A DNA stretch of 32,654 bases from Chloroflexota bacterium (GTDB lineage: Bacteria; Chloroflexota; Anaerolineae; Promineifilales; Promineifilaceae): assembly GCA_012515125.1 (NCBI GenBank), contig JAAYYY010000192.1, forward strand, positions 1-32,654, in the 5' to 3' direction. The translations under genes were made by a program, and so were the position numbers. Of the stretch, positions 1,487 to 24,253 are shown one piece after another; position 1 is the stretch's first letter; every line of letters begins with the position of its first letter. The notes below the pieces were generated by a model. It saw nothing but the letters and a program-made list of their open reading frames with translations. It ran no database searches and was not told where the DNA came from.

Positions 1487-3967
1487 TCAGCTTACGTCTG
1501 CCGCGTCCTTCCAGAAATCCTGCACCTTCTCGTGCAGCAGCTCGTGTTCCGGCTGCGCCAACTCCGGGTCTTCGGCGAACAATGCCTGCGCCTCGCGCCG
1601 GGCCACTTCCAGCAGCTTCACGTCCAGCAGGGAGGCCAGACGCAGCTCCGGCATCCCGCTCTGGCGGCGACCAAAGAACTCGCCGGGGCCGCGTAGCTCC
1701 AGATCCTTTTCGGCCAATTGGAAGCCGTCGTTGGTCTGTTCCAGCGCCTCCAACCGCTCTTCGGCGTCCGGGCTGCCACTGTCGGAGATGAGCAGACAGT
1801 AGGACTGGTGCTCGCCGCGCCCGACGCGCCCGCGGAACTGGTGTAGCTGGGCAAGACCGAAGCGATTGGCTCCCTCGATAACCATGACGGTGCTGTTGGG
1901 CACGTCTACGCCCACTTCAATCACCGACGTGGAAACCAGGATATTGGTTTCCCCCTGATAGAAGGCGCGCATGACGCTTTCTTTTTCCGCGCCAGACATG
2001 CGCCCGTGTAACAGGCCAAGCTTCAGGTCCGGGAAGACCTCCTTCTGCAGGCGTGTGTGTTCCTCCACGGCTGCTTTGGCCTCGATCTTGTCCGACTCTT
2101 CGACCAGGGGGCAGATGAAGTAGGCCTGCCGGCCCTGCTGCACCTGACCGCGCACGAAGGCATAGGCCCGCTCGCGCTCGCTGGGGCGGATCCAGCGGGT
2201 GCGGATTTCCTGCCGGCCGGGCGGCATCTCGTCCAGTACCGACAGGTCGAGATCGCCATACATGGACAGCGCCAGGGAGCGCGGGATGGGCGTCGCGCTC
2301 ATCACCAGCAGGTGGGGATTGCGCGCCTCGCCCTGACCATTGTTAGCCGGGTTGCCCTTGTCGCGCAGCGCCGCGCGCTGGTCCACGCCAAAACGGTGCT
2401 GCTCGTCGATAACCGCCAGCGCCAGGCGGTGGAACTGCACGTTCTCCTGAATCAGAGCGTGAGTGCCGATGATGATGTCTACGCTGCCATCGGCCAGCCC
2501 GCCATAGATCTGCCCTCGCGCGGCCGCCGGCGTGCTGCCCGTGAGCAGGCTGACGCGGATGCCCAGAGGCGAGAGCAGGCGGTGCAGCCCCTGGTAGTGC
2601 TGCTCGGCGAGGATTTCCGTGGGGGCCATCATCGCTGCCTGCGTGCCGCCCGCCACGGCAATGACCATGGCGGCGGCAGCAACCACGGTTTTGCCCGCGC
2701 CGACGTCGCCCTGCAGCAGGCGGTTCATCGGCACCGGCCGGCCCATATCGGCGGCAATTTCACCCACCACCCGCTGCTGAGCGCCGGTCAGGGTGAAGGG
2801 CAGGCTGTCGAGAAACTGCTGTAGCTTTTCCTGGGCCGGCGGCAGTGGGATGGCCGGCTCGGCCTGCCAGGTGCGGCGCTGGCCCAACATGCCGAGCTGC
2901 AGCAGGAATAGCTCGTCGAAGGCCAGCCGGCGCCGCGCCGCGTGCAGCGCTTCGGCGCTATCGGGAAAATGGATCTGCAGCAGCGCCTCTGGCAGCCGCA
3001 GCAGCCGCTGCCGCGAGCGTACGCTCTCCGGCAGTGGGTCGGGCACGCGAGGCGCCCACTCTTCGACAGCCCGCTTCATCAAGTCGCGCATCTTGCCGGC
3101 GTTCAGCCCTTTCGTCAGCGGGTAGGCGGGAACGATGCGCCCGGTGTGCATCAGCTCTTCCGACAGCTCCTCCCACTCTGGCGAGTTGAAGACCTTGCGT
3201 CCCAGATAGTGGTCCACCGTCCCGCTGAGGACGATATGCGCGCCGGCCGGCAGCTTCTGAGCGAGCCACGGCTGGTTGAACCAGGTCGCCTGGATATTGC
3301 CCGTCCCGTCGCTGATGATCGACTGCACGATCGACTGGTTGTTGCGTGCGCGGCGCGCTCGGGTCTCCCAGACGGTGCCGATGACGGTGACCGTCTCGCC
3401 AACCTCCAGGCGGTTGATCGGCTTGAGCTGGCTGTAATCGTCATAACGGCGGGGGTAGAGATACAGCAGGTCCCAGATCGTCTCTACACCCATGCTGCCG
3501 AGACGTTCGGCCGTCGCCGCGCCCACGCCCCGGAGCGTGGTGACCGGGCGCGCCAGCCCCTCGGGGTCCGGCTCCTGGATCGTGATTGGCCTGAGTTCGG
3601 GCGCTGCCACTGTCGTTTCTGCGGCGGGTGCCGGGGCCGCTTCCTGCCGGGCTGCAGCTTCGGGCCGGGATGTGGGTCGTGCCACCTGCTTGCCGCCCAG
3701 TCGTGCTTCGCGCTCGCGCAGCTTCTCCTGCAAGTTTTGCAGCATGGCTGCGCGCGCTTCCGTACCCGACAGGCGGGCGTAGCTCTGCAGCTCCTCGGCA
3801 ATCTGTTCCACGAGCGCGCGATCGACCTCGTCCAGAGCCTCTTCCCGCGCCCGCGTGACCCAGAAGGCAGCGAACTGACGAATGCCGCCGACTACGGCCT
3901 TGTTCTTGTATCCCTGCTTCTCTTCCAGCGTCAGAACACGCTCAAGTTGTGTGAATGCTTTGACCAT
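1487..3967 (-). CDS. recG: ATP-dependent DNA helicase RecG
   Basis: Superfamily 2 helicase that remodels stalled replication forks and branch-migrates Holliday junctions. At 826 residues it is longer than E. coli RecG (about 690). The excess is an N-terminal domain of roughly 95 residues and an Ala/Pro-rich linker to about residue 140, then the helix-hairpin-helix-like TLRGVGAATAERL segment, the OB-fold wedge domain (about 170-300) and two helicase domains. Walker A is GDVGAGKT near residue 420, motif II is DEQH near 520, and SATPIPR and FRGRVGRG follow. The N-terminal extension is of a type seen in other deep-branching bacteria. The ATG at 3967 lacks a strong ribosome site. A separate promoter lies in the 121-base gap after degV. 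Confidence 0.96.
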   Translation of the reverse strand: MVKAFTQLERVLTLEEKQGYKNKAVVGGIRQFAAFWVTRAREEALDEVDRALVEQIAEELQSYARLSGTEARAAMLQNLQEKLREREARLGGKQVARPTSRPEAAARQEAAPAPAAETTVAAPELRPITIQEPDPEGLARPVTTLRGVGAATAERLGSMGVETIWDLLYLYPRRYDDYSQLKPINRLEVGETVTVIGTVWETRARRARNNQSIVQSIISDGTGNIQATWFNQPWLAQKLPAGAHIVLSGTVDHYLGRKVFNSPEWEELSEELMHTGRIVPAYPLTKGLNAGKMRDLMKRAVEEWAPRVPDPLPESVRSRQRLLRLPEALLQIHFPDSAEALHAARRRLAFDELFLLQLGMLGQRRTWQAEPAIPLPPAQEKLQQFLDSLPFTLTGAQQRVVGEIAADMGRPVPMNRLLQGDVGAGKTVVAAAAMVIAVAGGTQAAMMAPTEILAEQHYQGLHRLLSPLGIRVSLLTGSTPAAARGQIYGGLADGSVDIIIGTHALIQENVQFHRLALAVIDEQHRFGVDQRAALRDKGNPANNGQGEARNPHLLVMSATPIPRSLALSMYGDLDLSVLDEMPPGRQEIRTRWIRPSERERAYAFVRGQVQQGRQAYFICPLVEESDKIEAKAAVEEHTRLQKEVFPDLKLGLLHGRMSGAEKESVMRAFYQGETNILVSTSVIEVGVDVPNSTVMVIEGANRFGLAQLHQFRGRVGRGEHQSYCLLISDSGSPDAEERLEALEQTNDGFQLAEKDLELRGPGEFFGRRQSGMPELRLASLLDVKLLEVARREAQALFAEDPELAQPEHELLHEKVQDFWKDAADVS

Positions 3968-17528: not shown

Positions 17529-17960
17529 ATGTCTGATCTCTTCAGTCCCGAAACCTGGCGCACGCTGGGCATCATCCTGCTCGTCTGGATGGGCGTCAGC
17601 CTCACCCTCGCCCTCTTGCTTTTCGTTCTGGTCATTCGCAAGCTGGGCCGGTTGAACATCCCCCCGGACGCCGGCTTTGGTGAGACGCTGCACTACACCC
17701 CGTTTCTGGTCGTCGTCTTCATCGATCTGCTCGACTGGGGGCTGGACTTCTTCGCCGCGCCCATTTCCTGGGTCATTCTCGACCGCCTCGGGCTGCGAGC
17801 GCTGCGCAATGTCTCCGCGCTGGAGGCGCTGATCCCCTTCACCCAGCCTATTCCTACGCTCACGGCAGCCTGGTTATGGGTTCGTTTCTTTGGTCCGCAG
17901 GGGTTGCCCCCGTTGCCTCAAGAGCCGCCCTCTCCACCCGCTAAATCGCGCCGCCGCTAG
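17529..17960 (+). CDS. Hypothetical membrane protein
   Basis: 143 residues with an N-terminal transmembrane helix (about 13-35), a second hydrophobic region (about 58-80), a third weaker one (about 100-118), and a Pro/Lys/Arg-rich cytoplasmic-looking tail. I do not recognise a family. GGGAG lies six bases before the ATG. It follows the DUF456 gene by 13 bases, so the two are likely partners. It ends two bases from the convergent feoA stop. Confidence 0.8.
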   Translation: MSDLFSPETWRTLGIILLVWMGVSLTLALLLFVLVIRKLGRLNIPPDAGFGETLHYTPFLVVVFIDLLDWGLDFFAAPISWVILDRLGLRALRNVSALEALIPFTQPIPTLTAAWLWVRFFGPQGLPPLPQEPPSPPAKSRRR

Positions 17961-17962
17961 CC

Positions 17963-18190
17963 TTAGTTCGCGGGCGGCATCAGGATGATGTCCCGCGCGA
18001 CGGACCGCTCCAGCGACAGCATTGTCTCGCCTGCCCAGACGATGTAGACCGGCTTGCGCTGCTGCAGGCGCAGCAGGCTGCCCGGAAAAACGCCCAATGA
18101 GGCCAGCTTCATCAGCCGGGCGCCGTCCTCGCTTCTGATTTCGGCCACGCGGGCGATCTGTCCAGGCTGTAACTCGTCCAGGGTCATCAT
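17963..18190 (-). CDS. feoA: FeoA family ferrous iron transport protein
   Basis: A 75-residue SH3-like protein that binds FeoB's cytosolic part and is needed for Fe2+ uptake. The typical FeoA features are here: LDELQPGQIARV, a central MKLASLGVFPGS turn, and SLERSVARDIIL at the C-terminus. The ATG at 18190 is favoured by AAGGA seven bases upstream; the TTG at 18205 would overlap the previous gene. It is the last gene of the feo operon, after the Cys-rich protein. Confidence 0.93.
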   Translation of the reverse strand: MMTLDELQPGQIARVAEIRSEDGARLMKLASLGVFPGSLLRLQQRKPVYIVWAGETMLSLERSVARDIILMPPAN

Positions 18191-18194
18191 CCGT

Positions 18195-18395
18195 CTATCC
18201 TTCAACTGTCTGTGTCTTGCTTAAGGCCGCTTTGAGCTTCAGTAAAAGATTCACACTTCCCGAGCGTTTCTCGTCCACCGTCTGGTAGCCGCAGTTGGGG
18301 CAGCAGACGATATTGCAGCCGGCCGCCAGCGGGCAGCTACTATGGCAGCTAAGCGCCGTACTGTCGAATTCGTAGCCACATAAGGCGCATTTCAC
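18195..18395 (-). CDS. Small eight-cysteine protein of the feo operon
   Basis: A 66-residue protein whose first 36 residues hold eight cysteines (3, 6, 17, 21, 27, 31, 32, 35) and a His at 18, in CxxC and CCPNC groupings, followed by a Lys-rich helix. It looks like a metal- or Fe-S-binding domain and resembles small Cys-rich proteins seen beside feoB in some anaerobes. It is not FeoC, which is a winged helix. Start GTG at 18395, with AGGAG (overlapping the feoB stop TAG) nine bases upstream. Its position between feoB and feoA, four and 12 bases from each, indicates a Feo role: iron sensing, chaperoning or redox control (inference). Confidence 0.85.
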   Translation of the reverse strand: MKCALCGYEFDSTALSCHSSCPLAAGCNIVCCPNCGYQTVDEKRSGSVNLLLKLKAALSKTQTVEG

Positions 18396-18407
18396 GATCG
18401 ACTTCTC

Positions 18408-20372
18408 CTAGAACGATATGCCCAGCAGCCGGAAAATCAGGTTCAGCAGGCCGCCGATCCCAAACGCCAGCGGGAAGACAGTGCCGATAACGGCCAGCGC
18501 CGTGCGCCGGCCGTGCTCGCGAATAACCATCAGCAAGTTGGCGATGCAGGGAACAAAGAGCGTAATCACGACCAGGCTGATGACCAGCTGGTTAGCCGAA
18601 AGCATGCCGGTACGCGCCATATCGAAGAGGCCCGCGGCGCCAAAATCGCGGCGCAGGAAGCCAATGAGGAACACGCCTGCCGTCTCCTCAGGCAGACCCA
18701 GGAAGCCCGTAACCAGGGGCGCGAGCAGGCTCTGCAGAGCGACGAGCGCGCCCGTTCTGTCGAGTACGAAAAGGATGGTCGAGCCGAGGGCAAAGAGCGG
18801 CAGCACCTCTTTCATGTACCATTCGATGCGCGCCAGTGTCTTGACGACGATGTTACCAAGCTGCGGGACACGCACCGGCGGCAGCTCCAGGATGAAGTCG
18901 GAGCTCTTTCCCGGCAGCAGTCGCGCCGCCAGCCAGCCAACGGCAAAGAGTGTCGCCAGGACGACGCCCAGCCAGACCGCAATGGCCCGGCCGGTGAGGA
19001 TCGCCGCCATGCCCATGAGCACGCCGAGCTGCGCCGAACAGGGCACGCCCAGAACCAGCAGCAGCGTCACCTGCACCCGTTCTTTGCGCGTCTCCAGGAT
19101 GCGGGTCGTCAGCGTGGCCATCGTGTCGCAGCCCAGGCCGAGAACCATCGGCAGCACCGCCTTCCCGTTCAGCCCCATGGCCTGAAAAGCGCGGTTACTC
19201 ATCACAGCCAGCCGGGGCAAATAGCCGGAGTCCTCCAGGACGCTGAAGGCCACGAAGAAGGTGAAGACAATGGGCAGGACGATGGCTATGCCGTAGGTCA
19301 GCGCCATCGTCACCAGGCCATACTCGCCGACGAGGAAATCACGCAGCAGCTCCCACGGCAGGAAGGCGACCAGCCGGCTGACCGCGGGGTTGATCCATTC
19401 GCCAAAGAGCACGCTTTCCATCCAATCGACCATCGTGCCCGCGCCAAAAACGCCGACCACGTAATAGAGCCCGGCAAGCACGACCAGAAGGAATGGCCAG
19501 CCCCATAGCGGATCGACCATCAGGTAGCCGAGCCGTTCCCGGAAGCTAATATGGCGGACCTCCGGCACACGAGATACCTCGGCAGCCACGCAGTCGGCGC
19601 AGCGCATACGCTGCTGGGTAATGACATACCCCAACGGCTGGTCGTAGCGCGCCGCCGTTTCCGCGACGATGGCCTCAATGGCGGCGCGAGCATCGCTACC
19701 CACCTGACGCCTGCCGTAAGCCTCTCCATCGCCAGAGAGCAGGGCCAGCGCCAGCGCGCGCTTGCCGTGCCACTCCTCCGGCAGCAGGGCGACGATGTCC
19801 GCGACCGCCTGCTCGACGGTCCCGTCGTAGCGGATGCGATAGCTGATCGGCCGGGGGTTCAGGAGCCGTTGCTGCAGCGCGGGCACGCCTTCGCCGCGTG
19901 TCGCCGTGGTGGGCACCACCTCGCTGCCGAGGATCTGCGCCAGCCGCCGGGCGTCTACATCGATGCCTGCGGCGCTGGCTTCGTCGGTCATGTTGAGCGC
20001 CAGCACAAAGGGCAGCTCGTGTTCGGCAAGCTGGAAGGTGAGCTGCAGGGCGCGCCGCAGGTTCTTGCTGTCGGCCACCTGTAACACGGCCCACGGCGTC
20101 TCGTCGAGTAGCACGTCGCGCGCCACCCGCTCGTCGTCGGAGCGCGCTAACAGGCTCTGGATGCCCGGCGTGTCAATCAGGTCAACCTCGTGGCCATTCA
20201 GGCGGAACCGCCCTCGCGTGAGCTCGACGGTGGTGCCGGGATAGTTGGAGATGTCTACGTGCCGGCCGGTTAATGCCGAAAAGACGGCCGACTTGCCGAC
20301 GTTGGGATTGCCGATGAGCACGATGGGCCGTGTTCCGGGGGATAGCTCGAGCGCTGCTGAACGACAGGACAT
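18408..20372 (-). CDS. feoB: Ferrous iron transporter FeoB
   Basis: GTP-regulated Fe2+ importer of the inner membrane, 654 residues from the ATG at 20372. The N-terminal G domain has G1 GNPNVGKS (21-28), G2 NYPGTT, G3 DTPG and G4 NMTD, then a helical spacer and a membrane domain of about eight segments. The pore segment reads GLGCDTMAT and is followed by ILETRKERVQ and GVPCSAQLG; this is the CDTMA-type FeoB, not the E. coli GCNVPA type. An upstream in-frame extension to 20456 would run through the iron box and promoter and is rejected. First gene of a feoB-Cys-rich-feoA operon. Confidence 0.95.
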   Translation of the reverse strand: MSCRSAALELSPGTRPIVLIGNPNVGKSAVFSALTGRHVDISNYPGTTVELTRGRFRLNGHEVDLIDTPGIQSLLARSDDERVARDVLLDETPWAVLQVADSKNLRRALQLTFQLAEHELPFVLALNMTDEASAAGIDVDARRLAQILGSEVVPTTATRGEGVPALQQRLLNPRPISYRIRYDGTVEQAVADIVALLPEEWHGKRALALALLSGDGEAYGRRQVGSDARAAIEAIVAETAARYDQPLGYVITQQRMRCADCVAAEVSRVPEVRHISFRERLGYLMVDPLWGWPFLLVVLAGLYYVVGVFGAGTMVDWMESVLFGEWINPAVSRLVAFLPWELLRDFLVGEYGLVTMALTYGIAIVLPIVFTFFVAFSVLEDSGYLPRLAVMSNRAFQAMGLNGKAVLPMVLGLGCDTMATLTTRILETRKERVQVTLLLVLGVPCSAQLGVLMGMAAILTGRAIAVWLGVVLATLFAVGWLAARLLPGKSSDFILELPPVRVPQLGNIVVKTLARIEWYMKEVLPLFALGSTILFVLDRTGALVALQSLLAPLVTGFLGLPEETAGVFLIGFLRRDFGAAGLFDMARTGMLSANQLVISLVVITLFVPCIANLLMVIREHGRRTALAVIGTVFPLAFGIGGLLNLIFRLLGISF

Positions 20373-20392
20373 AACAGATTCCAAGAAAAGTT

Positions 20393-20406
20393 TAAGGTCA
20401 GCCTTA
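20393..20406 (-). promoter_or_regulatory. DtxR/IdeR-like iron box upstream of feoB
   Basis: The inverted repeat TAAGG-TCAG-CCTTA matches 13 of the first 14 positions of the IdeR consensus TWAGGTWAGSCTWACCTWA. It lies about 20 bases before the feoB ATG and overlaps a minus-strand TATAAG -10 candidate (20409-20404), the right place for iron-dependent repression. No DtxR-family gene is in the window. Confidence 0.6.
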
Positions 20407-20465
20407 TACCTGTATTTTAGGCAGTCCTTGAATTGTCTGATAGGGGATAGGATCACGTGGGGGCC

Positions 20466-20519: not shown

Positions 20520-21101
20520 ATGAACGAGGAAAAGAGCCGCCGGCCGAACCGTTCGGAGCTGCAGGCTGCGGCCGGCAAGACGGTAAACGACGTCATCGCG
20601 CCGGGGCTAAAGGGCCTCTTTTGCGGCATCAACCCGGGCCTCTTCACCGCCTGGATGGGCCACCACTTCGCCCGGCCGGGGAATCGCTTCTGGCCTGCCA
20701 TCCACGCCGCCGGCATCACCCCGCGCCTGCTCCACCCGCCGGAGGAACAGGAGCTGCTGCGCTACGGTTATGGCATCACCAACGTTGTGCAGCGAGCCAC
20801 GGCGCGCGCCGACGAGCTATCCAGAGAGGAGTACGTGCAGGGAGGCGAGCGGCTGGTCGAGAAAGTGATGCGTTACCGGCCCGGCGTGCTGGCGATACTG
20901 GGACTTGGCGCTTACCGCACCGCCTTCGGCCGGCCCAATGCCAGCGTCGGCCTCCAGAGCAGGACGATTGACGGCGTGCCCATCTGGCTGTTGCCCAACC
21001 CCAGCGGACTCAACGCCCATTACCAGCTCGCGGACCTGGCTCGCCTGCTGCGCGAGCTGGACGACTTCGCCACGGCGCAGGCTGCCGCTACAAATCGATA
21101 G
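20520..21101 (+). CDS. mug: Mismatch-specific uracil/thymine DNA glycosylase
   Basis: Removes U or T mispaired with G, starting base-excision repair of deaminated cytosines. The 193 residues from ATG 20520 include the family-2 UDG motif GINPG (near residue 38) with the active-site Asn, and the second motif NPSGLN near the C-terminus; GNRFWPAI and GYGITNVV are family landmarks. A GTG at 20457 would add 21 residues and overlap the CRP-like palindrome, so I reject it. The last 14 bases overlap the end of the convergent M42 gene. Confidence 0.93.
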   Translation: MNEEKSRRPNRSELQAAAGKTVNDVIAPGLKGLFCGINPGLFTAWMGHHFARPGNRFWPAIHAAGITPRLLHPPEEQELLRYGYGITNVVQRATARADELSREEYVQGGERLVEKVMRYRPGVLAILGLGAYRTAFGRPNASVGLQSRTIDGVPIWLLPNPSGLNAHYQLADLARLLRELDDFATAQAAATNR

Positions 21102-22080
21102 GCCGGGAGAGCAATTCTACCAGGAGCCGGACGCTGTTTTCGACGTCGCCGGCATGGACGACCTCGCTCTGTGAATGCACGTAGCGGCAGGGAACGCTTA
21201 TCGCGCCGGCGGCGCTGCCCGCGCCCGCAATCTGGATCGACCGCGCATCCGTGCTGCCCGGCTCCAGCACTTCCATCTGGTAGGGAATGCCGGCCTCGCC
21301 TGCGCGTTGGCGCATGAGCTGCACCAGCCCGGCGTGGGCGATCATATCCCGGTCTTTCGCCTTGATCGCCGTGCCCTTGCCCAGCTCGACGGCCATCTCC
21401 GCTGCGCCGGGTGTGTCGCCCGTTCCCGTCACGTCGATAGCCAGACCAATCTCGGGCTCGATAGCATTTGCTGCTGCCTGCGCGCCGCGCGTGCCCACCT
21501 CTTCCTGCACGCTGAACACCACGTACAGGTCGTGAGGCGTCGCCTCGAGTCGCTGCAGCGCCGCAATGGCAATCGCGCAGCCAATGCGGTCGTCCAGGCT
21601 CTTGGCGATGTAAAGCTCCCCTTGTTGCTCGAACGGCCCGACGAACGCGGCGGCGGCGCCGACGGCCACAGGGACGTCTTCCCGGCTGGAAGCGCCCACG
21701 TCGATGTAATGTTTGCTCAGCGGATGGACCTTACTGCGATCTTCCAGTTTCTCGCCGTAGACGACGCCTGTCGTGCCGTCGGCAAACTGCACGCGGCTGC
21801 CCATGAGGTGATGCACGAAGACGCCGCCGATGTTGGTGAAGCGCAGGAAGCCCTCTCTGGTCACGTGGGTAACCATCACGCCGATCTCGTCCATGTGCGC
21901 CGCAACCATGACCCGGCGCCCGCTGCCGTCCCCCTGCTTGCGGACGATCAGGTTGCCCAGGGCATCGACACGAATCTCGTCGGCGTAAGCTTCCACTTCC
22001 GGCCGGATGATCTCGCGGACGGCGTCCTCAAAGCCGGATGGCCCATACGCGCTGACCAGTTTTTCGATTAGCTCTTTCAT
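21088..22080 (-). CDS. M42 family metallo-aminopeptidase (copy A)
   Basis: Dinuclear-metal aminopeptidase or endoglucanase-like enzyme of the M42 family; characterised members (TET, YsdC, FrvX) form dodecamers that trim short peptides in the cytoplasm. The 330 residues contain His62-x-Asp64 in AAHMDE, KSLDDR (Asp163), QEEVG (Glu193-Glu194), AIDV (Asp216) and CRYVHSQSE with the last metal His. All catalytic residues are present. ATG at 22080 has GGAG nine bases upstream. Third gene in the M42 trio, 27 bases after copy B. Confidence 0.93.
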   Translation of the reverse strand: MKELIEKLVSAYGPSGFEDAVREIIRPEVEAYADEIRVDALGNLIVRKQGDGSGRRVMVAAHMDEIGVMVTHVTREGFLRFTNIGGVFVHHLMGSRVQFADGTTGVVYGEKLEDRSKVHPLSKHYIDVGASSREDVPVAVGAAAAFVGPFEQQGELYIAKSLDDRIGCAIAIAALQRLEATPHDLYVVFSVQEEVGTRGAQAAANAIEPEIGLAIDVTGTGDTPGAAEMAVELGKGTAIKAKDRDMIAHAGLVQLMRQRAGEAGIPYQMEVLEPGSTDARSIQIAGAGSAAGAISVPCRYVHSQSEVVHAGDVENSVRLLVELLSRPIDL

Positions 22081-22107
22081 CGTTCTGCTCCGTGGTCTAC
22101 GACAGGT

Positions 22108-23142
22108 TTATCGCTGCAGTACAGCCGCGTCGAGGTTGCGTAGCGCCGCCTGCGCGAGCTGCACGACGTGGCCGAAATCGTCGAGGTTAATCATGCTTGT
22201 CGGCGCGTGGGCATAGCGGGTCGGCGTGGCAATCGTGGCTGCCGAAACGGCGCCTCCGGCCCGCTGGATCACGGCTGTGTTCGTGCCGCCCCCACCCGGC
22301 TGGCGGATCTGGTAAGGGATGTTGTTGTCGTCGGCGGTGCGCATGAGGTGGCTGACGAGCCGTGGGTCCTGGATTGTTCCGGCGTCCATCACGTACAGGG
22401 AGGCTCCCCGGCCCATGACGACGTTCGGGCTGACGTCCCGTTCGTTGGGCAGGTCGTAGGCCGGCGTCGACTCCAGCACGAGCGCGACGTCGGGCCGCAC
22501 GCCGAAGGCTGCTGCCTGCGCGCCGCGCAGCCCCACTTCTTCCTGTACCGAGAAGACGGCGTAGAGGTCGAACGGAAAGGGCTCGCCGCGCAGCAGCTCG
22601 ATCAGGGCCGCACAGCCTGCCCGGTTGTCGAACGCTTTTCCCAACGCCACACGCCCGCTTTCTTCGTACCTGGTCAGGAAGGTAGCCCGGTCGCCCGCGC
22701 TCACCTTACGCTCGGCCTCCTCTTTCTTCTTCGCGCCGATGTCGATGCGCATGTCGTCAATCTTGACGTTCCGGTTGCGCTGTCCGGCATCCAGCAGGTG
22801 GATGGGCCGGGCGCCGATCATGCCCGGAAGCTGCTTTGGTCCAACCTGGACTACCTTGCCGAGCAGGGCCGGAGGGCTGATACCGCCCACCGCCTCAAAA
22901 CGCAGCGTGCCGTCGCTGTCGGCGCCGGTAATCATCATACCCACTTCGTCCATGTGGGCATCCACCAGCACCCGTAGCCCACTCGCGCCGCTGCCTTTCT
23001 TGAGGGCGATGAGGTTGCCCAGGGCGTCGACGCGCCACTCGTCCACGTGCCCGTCGATCAGGTCGCGGATCAGCAAGCGCACCTGTTTTTCGTCGCCAGA
23101 AACGCCCACTGCTTCGGTCAGTTTTTGTAGGAGATCGTTCAT
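22108..23142 (-). CDS. M42 family metallo-aminopeptidase (copy B)
   Basis: 344-residue M42 peptidase. Metal site: His63-x-Asp65 in DAHMDE, KAFDNR, QEEVG, and TRYAHAPTS. The fifth ligand position reads LVLEST, with Glu where copies A and C have Asp (AIDV); Glu at this site is known to occur in some M42 enzymes. It has a longer dimerisation domain with a Lys/Glu-rich loop. Its start is one base after the copy C stop, so they are cotranslated. Only moderate similarity to copies A and C suggests old paralogues with distinct peptide preferences. Confidence 0.92.
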   Translation of the reverse strand: MNDLLQKLTEAVGVSGDEKQVRLLIRDLIDGHVDEWRVDALGNLIALKKGSGASGLRVLVDAHMDEVGMMITGADSDGTLRFEAVGGISPPALLGKVVQVGPKQLPGMIGARPIHLLDAGQRNRNVKIDDMRIDIGAKKKEEAERKVSAGDRATFLTRYEESGRVALGKAFDNRAGCAALIELLRGEPFPFDLYAVFSVQEEVGLRGAQAAAFGVRPDVALVLESTPAYDLPNERDVSPNVVMGRGASLYVMDAGTIQDPRLVSHLMRTADDNNIPYQIRQPGGGGTNTAVIQRAGGAVSAATIATPTRYAHAPTSMINLDDFGHVVQLAQAALRNLDAAVLQR

Positions 23143-23143
23143 G

Positions 23144-24253
23144 CTAATCCGCTTCCATCATCTTGCGCGCCGTCTTCTCCAGAAAGTCGGCGTCGAGCTG
23201 CGCGGCGAACTCGCCCAGCAGCCGGCCGGCCCGCCGCACGTCCCTCAGCGCAGCCGTCTCCACCATCGTGTGCATATAACGCAGCGGGATGCTGACCAGG
23301 CCCGTGGGGATGCCGGCGCGGGCAACCTGCAGGCCGAAGGCGTCGGTCCCGCTCGCCCGCGCGTGGGGCTCGACATGCACCGTCATTTCCAGCGTCTCGG
23401 CGGCGCTTTTCAGTGCTTCGTGGATGCCCGGATGGACGTTCGGCCCCAGGCCCAGCGTCGGTCCACCGTCCAGCTCAAAGAGATGGCTCTCTTTGGCGCC
23501 CGGCCCTTTGCCAAAGGTAACGTCAATAGCCACCGCCAGGTCAGGCTGCTCGGCGTAGCCGCTGGTGAAGGCGCCCAGCAGGCGCGTCTCCTCCTGAACA
23601 GTCGCCACGGCGATCACGTCCCAGCTATGCTCCCGCTTCTGCAGGTAATCGAGCGCGACCGTCACAGCGGCGACTGAGGCGCGGTTGTCCAGCGCCTTGC
23701 CGCTGACGCGGTTGTTGAGCAGGCGGCGCAGCGGCTGGCGAAAGGTGATGAAATCGCCAACCGACACCAGATTCCGCAGCTCGCCCAGCGGCAGGCCCAC
23801 GTCGGCTACCAACTCGTCGAGATCGTAGGGCTTATCGCCGCGGTCGGGCGGCAACATGTGTGTGGGCAGGGCGGCGATGACGCCGGGCAGGTTACGCTGC
23901 CCATGGACGACGATCTGCTGCCCATACAGGTGGCGCAGGTCGACGCCGCCCACGCGCGAGACGCGCAGGAAGCCGTGAGCCTGCTCGTCCTCGGCGCCCT
24001 CTTTTTCGGACGGGTAGGCGACGATCTGCCGGACCATCAGGGCAATTTCGTCCATGTGTGCGGCGAGAAGCAGCCGGGGGCGAGGCCCATCGCCTTTGCC
24101 GCGTTTCACCGCCACGATGTTGCCTATGCGGTCCTCGCGCACTTCGTCGGCCAGGGGGCGCCACATCTCCATGATGACCATGGCGATGCCGGCTTCCTGC
24201 CCCGAAGGACCGGGCGTCTCCGTTAAGGTCTGTAATGTCTTAAAAAGGTCCAT
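23144..24253 (-). CDS. M42 family metallo-aminopeptidase (copy C)
   Basis: 369-residue M42 peptidase, the longest of the three. His66-x-Asp68 in AAHMDE, KALDNR, QEETR, AIDV and RYMHTMVE give a complete metal site. In QEETR the family's usual Val-Gly after the two catalytic Glu residues is replaced. It has an insertion around residues 75-90 rich in Glu (SEKEGAEDEQ) and a long loop between 120 and 160, both in the domain that shapes TET-complex entrances. It starts nine bases after the stop of the Pro/Thr-rich gene, with little Shine-Dalgarno sequence, suggesting coupling. Confidence 0.92.
   Translation of the reverse strand: MDLFKTLQTLTETPGPSGQEAGIAMVIMEMWRPLADEVREDRIGNIVAVKRGKGDGPRPRLLLAAHMDEIALMVRQIVAYPSEKEGAEDEQAHGFLRVSRVGGVDLRHLYGQQIVVHGQRNLPGVIAALPTHMLPPDRGDKPYDLDELVADVGLPLGELRNLVSVGDFITFRQPLRRLLNNRVSGKALDNRASVAAVTVALDYLQKREHSWDVIAVATVQEETRLLGAFTSGYAEQPDLAVAIDVTFGKGPGAKESHLFELDGGPTLGLGPNVHPGIHEALKSAAETLEMTVHVEPHARASGTDAFGLQVARAGIPTGLVSIPLRYMHTMVETAALRDVRRAGRLLGEFAAQLDADFLEKTARKMMEAD

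Follow-up and report, generated by a model that had tools for sequence, protein, structure and literature searches.

The stretch of DNA analysed here (the window) is 32,654 nucleotides long and comes from a bacterium of the Chloroflexota. Its feo locus lies on the minus strand, in the order feoB, a small cysteine-rich gene, and feoA. A profile search places feoB at 18408..20456; it encodes 682 residues and has the gate sequence GCDTMAT, of the CxTMAT class. The small gene (18195..18395), read from the sequence and the list of open reading frames, has a GTG start and encodes 66 residues. It is followed by a stand-alone feoA (17963..18190), with a likely ATG start at 18190. The identity of the two neighbours is certain by profile: FeoB scores 392 bits with TIGR00437, where the cut-off is 316 (NCBIfam profiles), and FeoA scores 49.9 bits with PF04023, where it is 23 (Pfam profiles). 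A genome-wide profile search of the source genome, whose assembly completeness is listed as 94.5%, found a single FeoB match, which is that of the window, and whole-genome profile searches found neither FeoC nor PF12669 above cut-off. No DtxR follows feoA at this locus.

The junction between feoB and the small gene (18396..18410) was read directly. It consists of the feoB stop codon TAG (18410-18408), an AGGAG (18409-18405) that overlaps this stop, and a spacer. The GTG at 18395 is thus 12 nt past the feoB stop and 9 nt beyond the AGGAG. The small gene is likely to be translationally coupled to feoB, as the initial annotation had claimed. At its other end, 4 nt separate the stop codon (18197-18195) from the likely ATG of feoA, and GAAGGA lies directly ahead of that ATG. 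The longest feoA frame has a TTG start at 18205, and would overlap the small gene. A plus-strand ORF of 143 aa (17529-17960) is convergent with feoA, and a Pfam search up to E ≤ 1 gave no match for it. Elsewhere in the window, three successive minus-strand ORFs of 330, 344 and 369 aa (21088-24253) resemble, on visual inspection, a tandem of M42-type metallopeptidases.

The small protein has cysteines at positions 3, 6, 17, 21, 27, 31, 32 and 35, and a recount agrees exactly with the 66 residues and eight positions originally given. They form two CxxCG knuckles (C3/C6, CALCG, and C32/C35, CPNCG), between which there is a middle group, C17-x3-C21-P-x4-C27, plus C31; a tail follows. The knuckles occur in the contexts CxxCGYEFD and CPNCGY.

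The window protein matches nothing in Pfam above cut-off, its best score being 13.2 bits against 24.5, and nothing in NCBIfam comes near cut-off. Among 50 aligned members of the family described below, for which the 25 commonest families were listed by E-value only, the best value was 1.9e-6 (PF10571). These weak matches, in Pfam and NCBIfam alike, are mostly to zinc ribbons; PF21349, of rubredoxin-like type, appears at E ≤ 0.1 in 18 of the 50 and is below cut-off in L093, the sole member for which bits are available. The initial annotation stated that the protein is not FeoC, and this is upheld: PF09012 gives no match to the protein at E ≤ 1, nor to the locus at E ≤ 10 in the genome-wide search. 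PF12669 was likewise rejected, there being no profile match to the small gene and no membrane segment in 135 members (none has a 19-residue stretch above 1.6 on the Kyte-Doolittle scale). A ferredoxin of the CX2CX2C type was rejected as well, as neither the window protein nor the consensus of the alignment contains CxxCxxC.

Homologues of the small protein are widespread. With the window protein as sole query (E ≤ 1e-3), 20 copies were found in 19 of 301 genomes of the window's phylum. All 20 are directly downstream of a FeoB match, and 16 of them have a FeoA match just downstream. A pattern scan of a named species collection gave at least 118 stretches, of which at least 89 match the family profile. 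Among the matches listed in that scan, 68 of the 89 profile matches are directly downstream of FeoB, and the 21 that are not feoB-linked are mostly archaeal. Profile searches of four phylum samples found the small gene in 11/120 genomes (sample of a Methanoperedens), 17/199 (Geosporobacter), 29/148 (a deltaproteobacterium) and 1/200 (a gammaproteobacterium, the one genome being the seed itself). In these samples together, 57 of 59 profile-hit loci are directly downstream of FeoB, a figure obtained with a profile built from feoB-linked members (except L044, at a contig edge) and including five genomes that had themselves contributed rows to it. Since feoB-linked members were used to train the profile, the unbiased measures of linkage are the search with the window protein and the pattern scan.

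The initial annotation had suggested a survey of feo loci. Such a survey reduced 193 loci to 158 distinct cores, 135 of them feoB-linked and 23 not, some of the former being fused to FeoA. By their locus titles, the feoB-adjacent copies among the matches listed belong to Bacillota, Chloroflexi, Omnitrophota, Nitrospirota, Deltaproteobacteria, Armatimonadota, Calditrichota, Nitrospinae, Actinomycetota, Methanoperedens and Baldrarchaeota, and members are present in the named genera Anaerolinea, Fervidicola, Caloranaerobacter, Anaerosalibacter, Geosporobacter and Methanoperedens. As judged from conservation across these loci, the small gene is a real, conserved gene, whose members form a family that many bacteria and some archaea possess. 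A chance ORF or annotation artefact would fit its short length and the lack of any curated family above cut-off; the 135 distinct members with conserved cysteines and position, the ribosome-binding site and the fusions to FeoA rule this out for all practical purposes.

Seven of the cysteines are practically invariant across the 135 distinct feoB-linked members, and the eighth, C31, is variable. C6, C21, C32 and C35 are present in all 135, C3 and C27 in 134 each, and a cysteine at either 17 or 18 in 135, while C31 is found in 49 and missing in 86. The C17-C21 spacing of the window protein (CxxxC) is the rarer form, CxxC being commoner. C31 occurs in all 14 members that have only CxxxC, compared to 35 of the 120 that have only CxxC (Fisher p 2e-7, uncorrected for kinship), and the fact that it tracks the CxxxC spacing suggests that C31 completes the middle cysteine group. 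Of 80 loci listed at one stage, the 19 that lack a CxxC ahead of the motif were left out of the counts, among them the feoB-linked L045. This Methanoperedens copy, beside feoB near position 3097 on the reverse strand, has lost its first cysteine (RTRPLCGAG), possibly through decay of the first cysteine site.

The same cysteines also occur away from feo. Several archaeal loci (L022, L046, L069, L073, L076, L094-L096 and L100) encode proteins with the core cysteines that are shorter, lack the tail and lie outside feo, and two profile matches in the Methanoperedens phylum (L240, L241) are not beside FeoB. The cysteine core is therefore a reusable fold that is not specific to feo, the feo version being a specialised branch. 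The stand-alone mini-proteins of Bathyarchaeota and relatives (L022, 6241-6372; L094, 6244-6387; L096, 4419-4559; L100, 4515-4649; and others) have the seven-cysteine core and no basic tail; four Bathyarchaeota loci have similar neighbours, and these mini-proteins could constitute a second family that has a role of its own.

The initial annotation had further expected the protein to co-occur with feoB of the CDTMA type. This holds in one direction only. The gate of the linked FeoB (n=123) is CxTMAT in 114, VPA in 7 and unread in 2, so that 114 of 121 readable gates are CxTMAT; the seven with a VPA gate are mainly archaeal. In the window's phylum, 90 of 301 genomes have FeoB. The CxTMAT pattern occurs there at 18 places in 17 genomes, and every one of these is a FeoB adjoining the small gene. 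Among 25 FeoB loci that were parsed (5 of the 30 could not be, and L161 is cut off by the edge of its contig), 21 have CNVP/CSVP gates and no small gene, and 4 have CDTMA and the small gene. Two copies in the phylum, G015 and G019, are without CxTMAT; the first sits at the edge of a contig and the second beside a CNVPAV gate. Going by the gate sequences, then, bacterial copies of the small gene are nearly confined to CxTMAT FeoB.

The converse does not hold. In a phylum sample titled Nitrospirota (118 genomes), 40 of 42 CxTMAT FeoB are without the small gene, and of the two that have it, one is in the seed genome. An obligatory tie to CxTMAT FeoB is thereby refuted, and since so many FeoB of this class do without the protein, it is not required, and is an optional partner of the class. 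The CxTMAT loci of this sample are L187-L211 and L214-L229, of which L189 and L205 break off inside FeoB and L208 does not encode a FeoB; in most of the 18 that were read, a DtxR-like gene comes directly after the CxTMAT FeoB. A tree of FeoB (FastTree, 182 rows, local support only) shows a single change of gate class, against eight changes in the presence of the small gene. We found no cysteines special to the small-linked FeoB, the three well-filled cysteine columns being conserved in all groups. The CADC in the linker of the window FeoB (residue 286) was considered as a shared CxxC and discarded, because only one of 25 other FeoB has a CxxC, and that elsewhere.

The other recurrent neighbour is FeoA. 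In 13 of the 135 members the small protein and FeoA are in one ORF, 12 directly and one through a DtxR-like segment (L185). The fusions come from Chloroflexota, Bacillota, Omnitrophota, Nitrospinae, Acidimicrobiia and Thermoleophilia; the small part sits at the N-terminus of FeoA, and PF04023 is above cut-off in both of the fusions checked in Pfam. A fusion to FeoB was also looked for and rejected, as the two are in the same frame in none of the listed loci with an upstream FeoB match. A separate FeoA lies within 200 nt in 36 members. In 75 the FeoA domain is found 200-1000 nt further on, as expected of a DtxR-FeoA protein, and both such proteins checked in Pfam contain PF02742 and PF04023. 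No FeoA lies within 1 kb in 6 members, and in 5 the sequence is too short.

The many DtxR-FeoA neighbours, together with the fusion in L185, could be taken to mean that the small protein is a transcription co-regulator, acting as a redox- or iron-dependent partner of the neighbouring DtxR-FeoA protein. We regard this as very improbable, in view of the 36 members with a stand-alone FeoA next to them, the 12 fused to FeoA with no DtxR, and the window locus itself. FeoB is the constant neighbour, and the partners that recur throughout are thus FeoB and FeoA rather than DtxR. As a separate observation, the DtxR and FeoA parts of the neighbouring protein can be joined by a cysteine-rich hinge (such as CPHNRPIPSGKCC), as in L031 (ORF 2687-3367), L072 and L055. 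One regular expression for this hinge matches 61 of the 75 DtxR-FeoA ORFs beside the small gene, and the hinge might provide this operon with a second metal site.

Beyond the cysteines, the tail carries a net positive charge in 129 of the 135 members. Its helical moment has a median of 0.53 in the 124 tails that are long enough, compared to 0.38 when shuffled. The window's own tail, predicted to be helical over residues 46-60, is a weak example of the family with a low moment of 0.33. The window protein and a consensus-like member were modelled with AlphaFold, with mean pLDDT values of 75 and 78 and pTM of 0.47 and 0.50; in both models, the knuckles are the most confident part and the C-terminal helix is present. 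A fold search with these two models, which are of middling confidence, yielded neither a Foldseek match at E ≤ 0.001 nor a Z above 2.6. Rubredoxins are absent from the matches of either model, which is uninformative either way. Against PDB sequences, the top matches of the family profile are C2H2 zinc fingers, which we take to share only the CPxCG spacing.

On the basis of these observations, the best explanation overall is that the small protein would be a third subunit of the Feo system, an accessory one that is soluble and cytosolic, binding a metal or cluster and acting with FeoA on FeoB; we give this roughly one chance in two. That it is a dedicated cytosolic component of Feo, of whatever mechanism, is highly probable. 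We propose that C3, C6, C32 and C35 would make one tetrathiolate site, for zinc or iron, which keeps the fold together in the manner of rubredoxins and CPxCG zinc ribbons. A second, more labile site, for Fe2+ or an Fe-S cluster, would be formed by C17 (or 18), C21 and C27, with C31 in some members. With its basic C-terminal helix the protein could dock at the face of the membrane or on the cytosolic domain of FeoB, beside FeoA, and the GTPase activity or stability of FeoB would then be tuned by the second site, through its occupancy or its redox state. This sensing or regulatory mechanism is put forward tentatively. A more specific version, in which a rubredoxin-like iron site and the adjacent site of three or four cysteines form a redox- or iron-gated switch that opens or closes FeoB together with FeoA, and that marks the CxTMAT class of FeoB in bacteria and some archaea, is possible but doubtful.

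In a rival reading, the protein could be a structural zinc ribbon, permanently loaded with zinc, which helps FeoA and FeoB to assemble or shields FeoB from proteolysis and senses nothing. Two CPxCG-type knuckles are typical of zinc ribbons, the weak database matches are mostly of this type, and 9 of 14 CPxCG mini-proteins of Haloferax bound zinc, although related proteins of this kind can also bind another metal or none (PMC11241148). Four cysteines would however suffice for such a ribbon, and here seven are practically invariant, with the extra set co-varying with C31; we consider this reading rather unlikely. The extra cysteines would also suit an open exchange site, there being three that are invariant while C31 is missing in 86 of 135 members. 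The protein might then be a metallochaperone, whose second site takes Fe2+ at the cytosolic exit of FeoB and hands it on, to Fe-S assembly or to other clients, with a structural role left to the first site. The gene is placed for production in step with FeoB, and members are found in Anaerolinea, Fervidicola, Caloranaerobacter and Methanoperedens, which live anaerobically. Fusion to FeoA points rather to regulation of FeoB than to a free shuttle, and an unsystematic look at the loci read noticed no client genes beside the small gene; a role as iron acceptor is unlikely.

A literature search, in which subscription journals were poorly covered, found no description of the family, which appears to be without a name. 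The available text of a survey of Feo evolution (PMC8749426) covers FeoC, PF12669 and cysteine domains at the C-terminus of FeoB, and contains nothing like it. The same text treats the regulation of FeoB, and what replaces FeoC outside the Gammaproteobacteria, as open questions (PMC8749426). The accessory subunit proposed here is a concrete and testable candidate for both, in culturable genera (Anaerolinea, Fervidicola, Caloranaerobacter, Anaerosalibacter and Geosporobacter), and its assignment to Feo would place in a pathway many proteins that match no curated family.

Several known systems are comparable. The fold of FeoC is a winged helix. FeoC is likewise small, cysteine-bearing and the third gene of a feo operon, and both proteins probably act on FeoB from the cytosol; they differ in that the small protein has two CxxCG knuckles and a middle group, while FeoC has one C-terminal motif. 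In E. coli, FeoC is described as carrying a [4Fe-4S] cluster under anaerobic conditions, and its cysteines as needed for full function (PMC8749426). By analogy, the small protein would be FeoC-like in role but of independent make. PF12669 proteins, which are described as having no assigned function (PMC8749426, PMC8980893), resemble the small protein in being short, cysteine-rich and adjacent to feoB.

Rubredoxins, and the rubredoxin-like domain of rubrerythrin, share the CxxCGYE(Y/F)D knuckle followed by a second CPxCG knuckle. Two CxxCG knuckles are present in 134-135 of the 135 feoB-linked members, and rubredoxin-type domains are the best iron-protein matches of the family profile (E ~1e-4), although C2H2 zinc fingers score better. 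The small family differs in its three invariant loop cysteines and basic helix, and has no confident fold match. The C(P)XCG mini-proteins of Haloferax volcanii, like the small protein, are below 70 aa and have two C(P)XCG motifs (PMC11241148), and one of them, HVO_2753, is a weak sequence match; the small family is distinguished by its seven to eight cysteines and its fixed feo context. Mvol_0976 of Methanococcus voltae is a small ferredoxin-like protein between FeoB and FeoA that is reported as 69-fold up on pyrite and as unique to M. voltae (PMC9431491). It occupies the same slot, and, in a comparison made by description alone, the CX2CX2C listed for it is absent from the family, to which it may be analogous. 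M. acetivorans also has one gene between FeoB (AAM06843) and FeoA (AAM06845; accessions from PMC8351635), a candidate for membership. Cysteine-rich small accessory proteins are a known kind in Feo, and the feoB-feoA family described here appears to be an addition to it.
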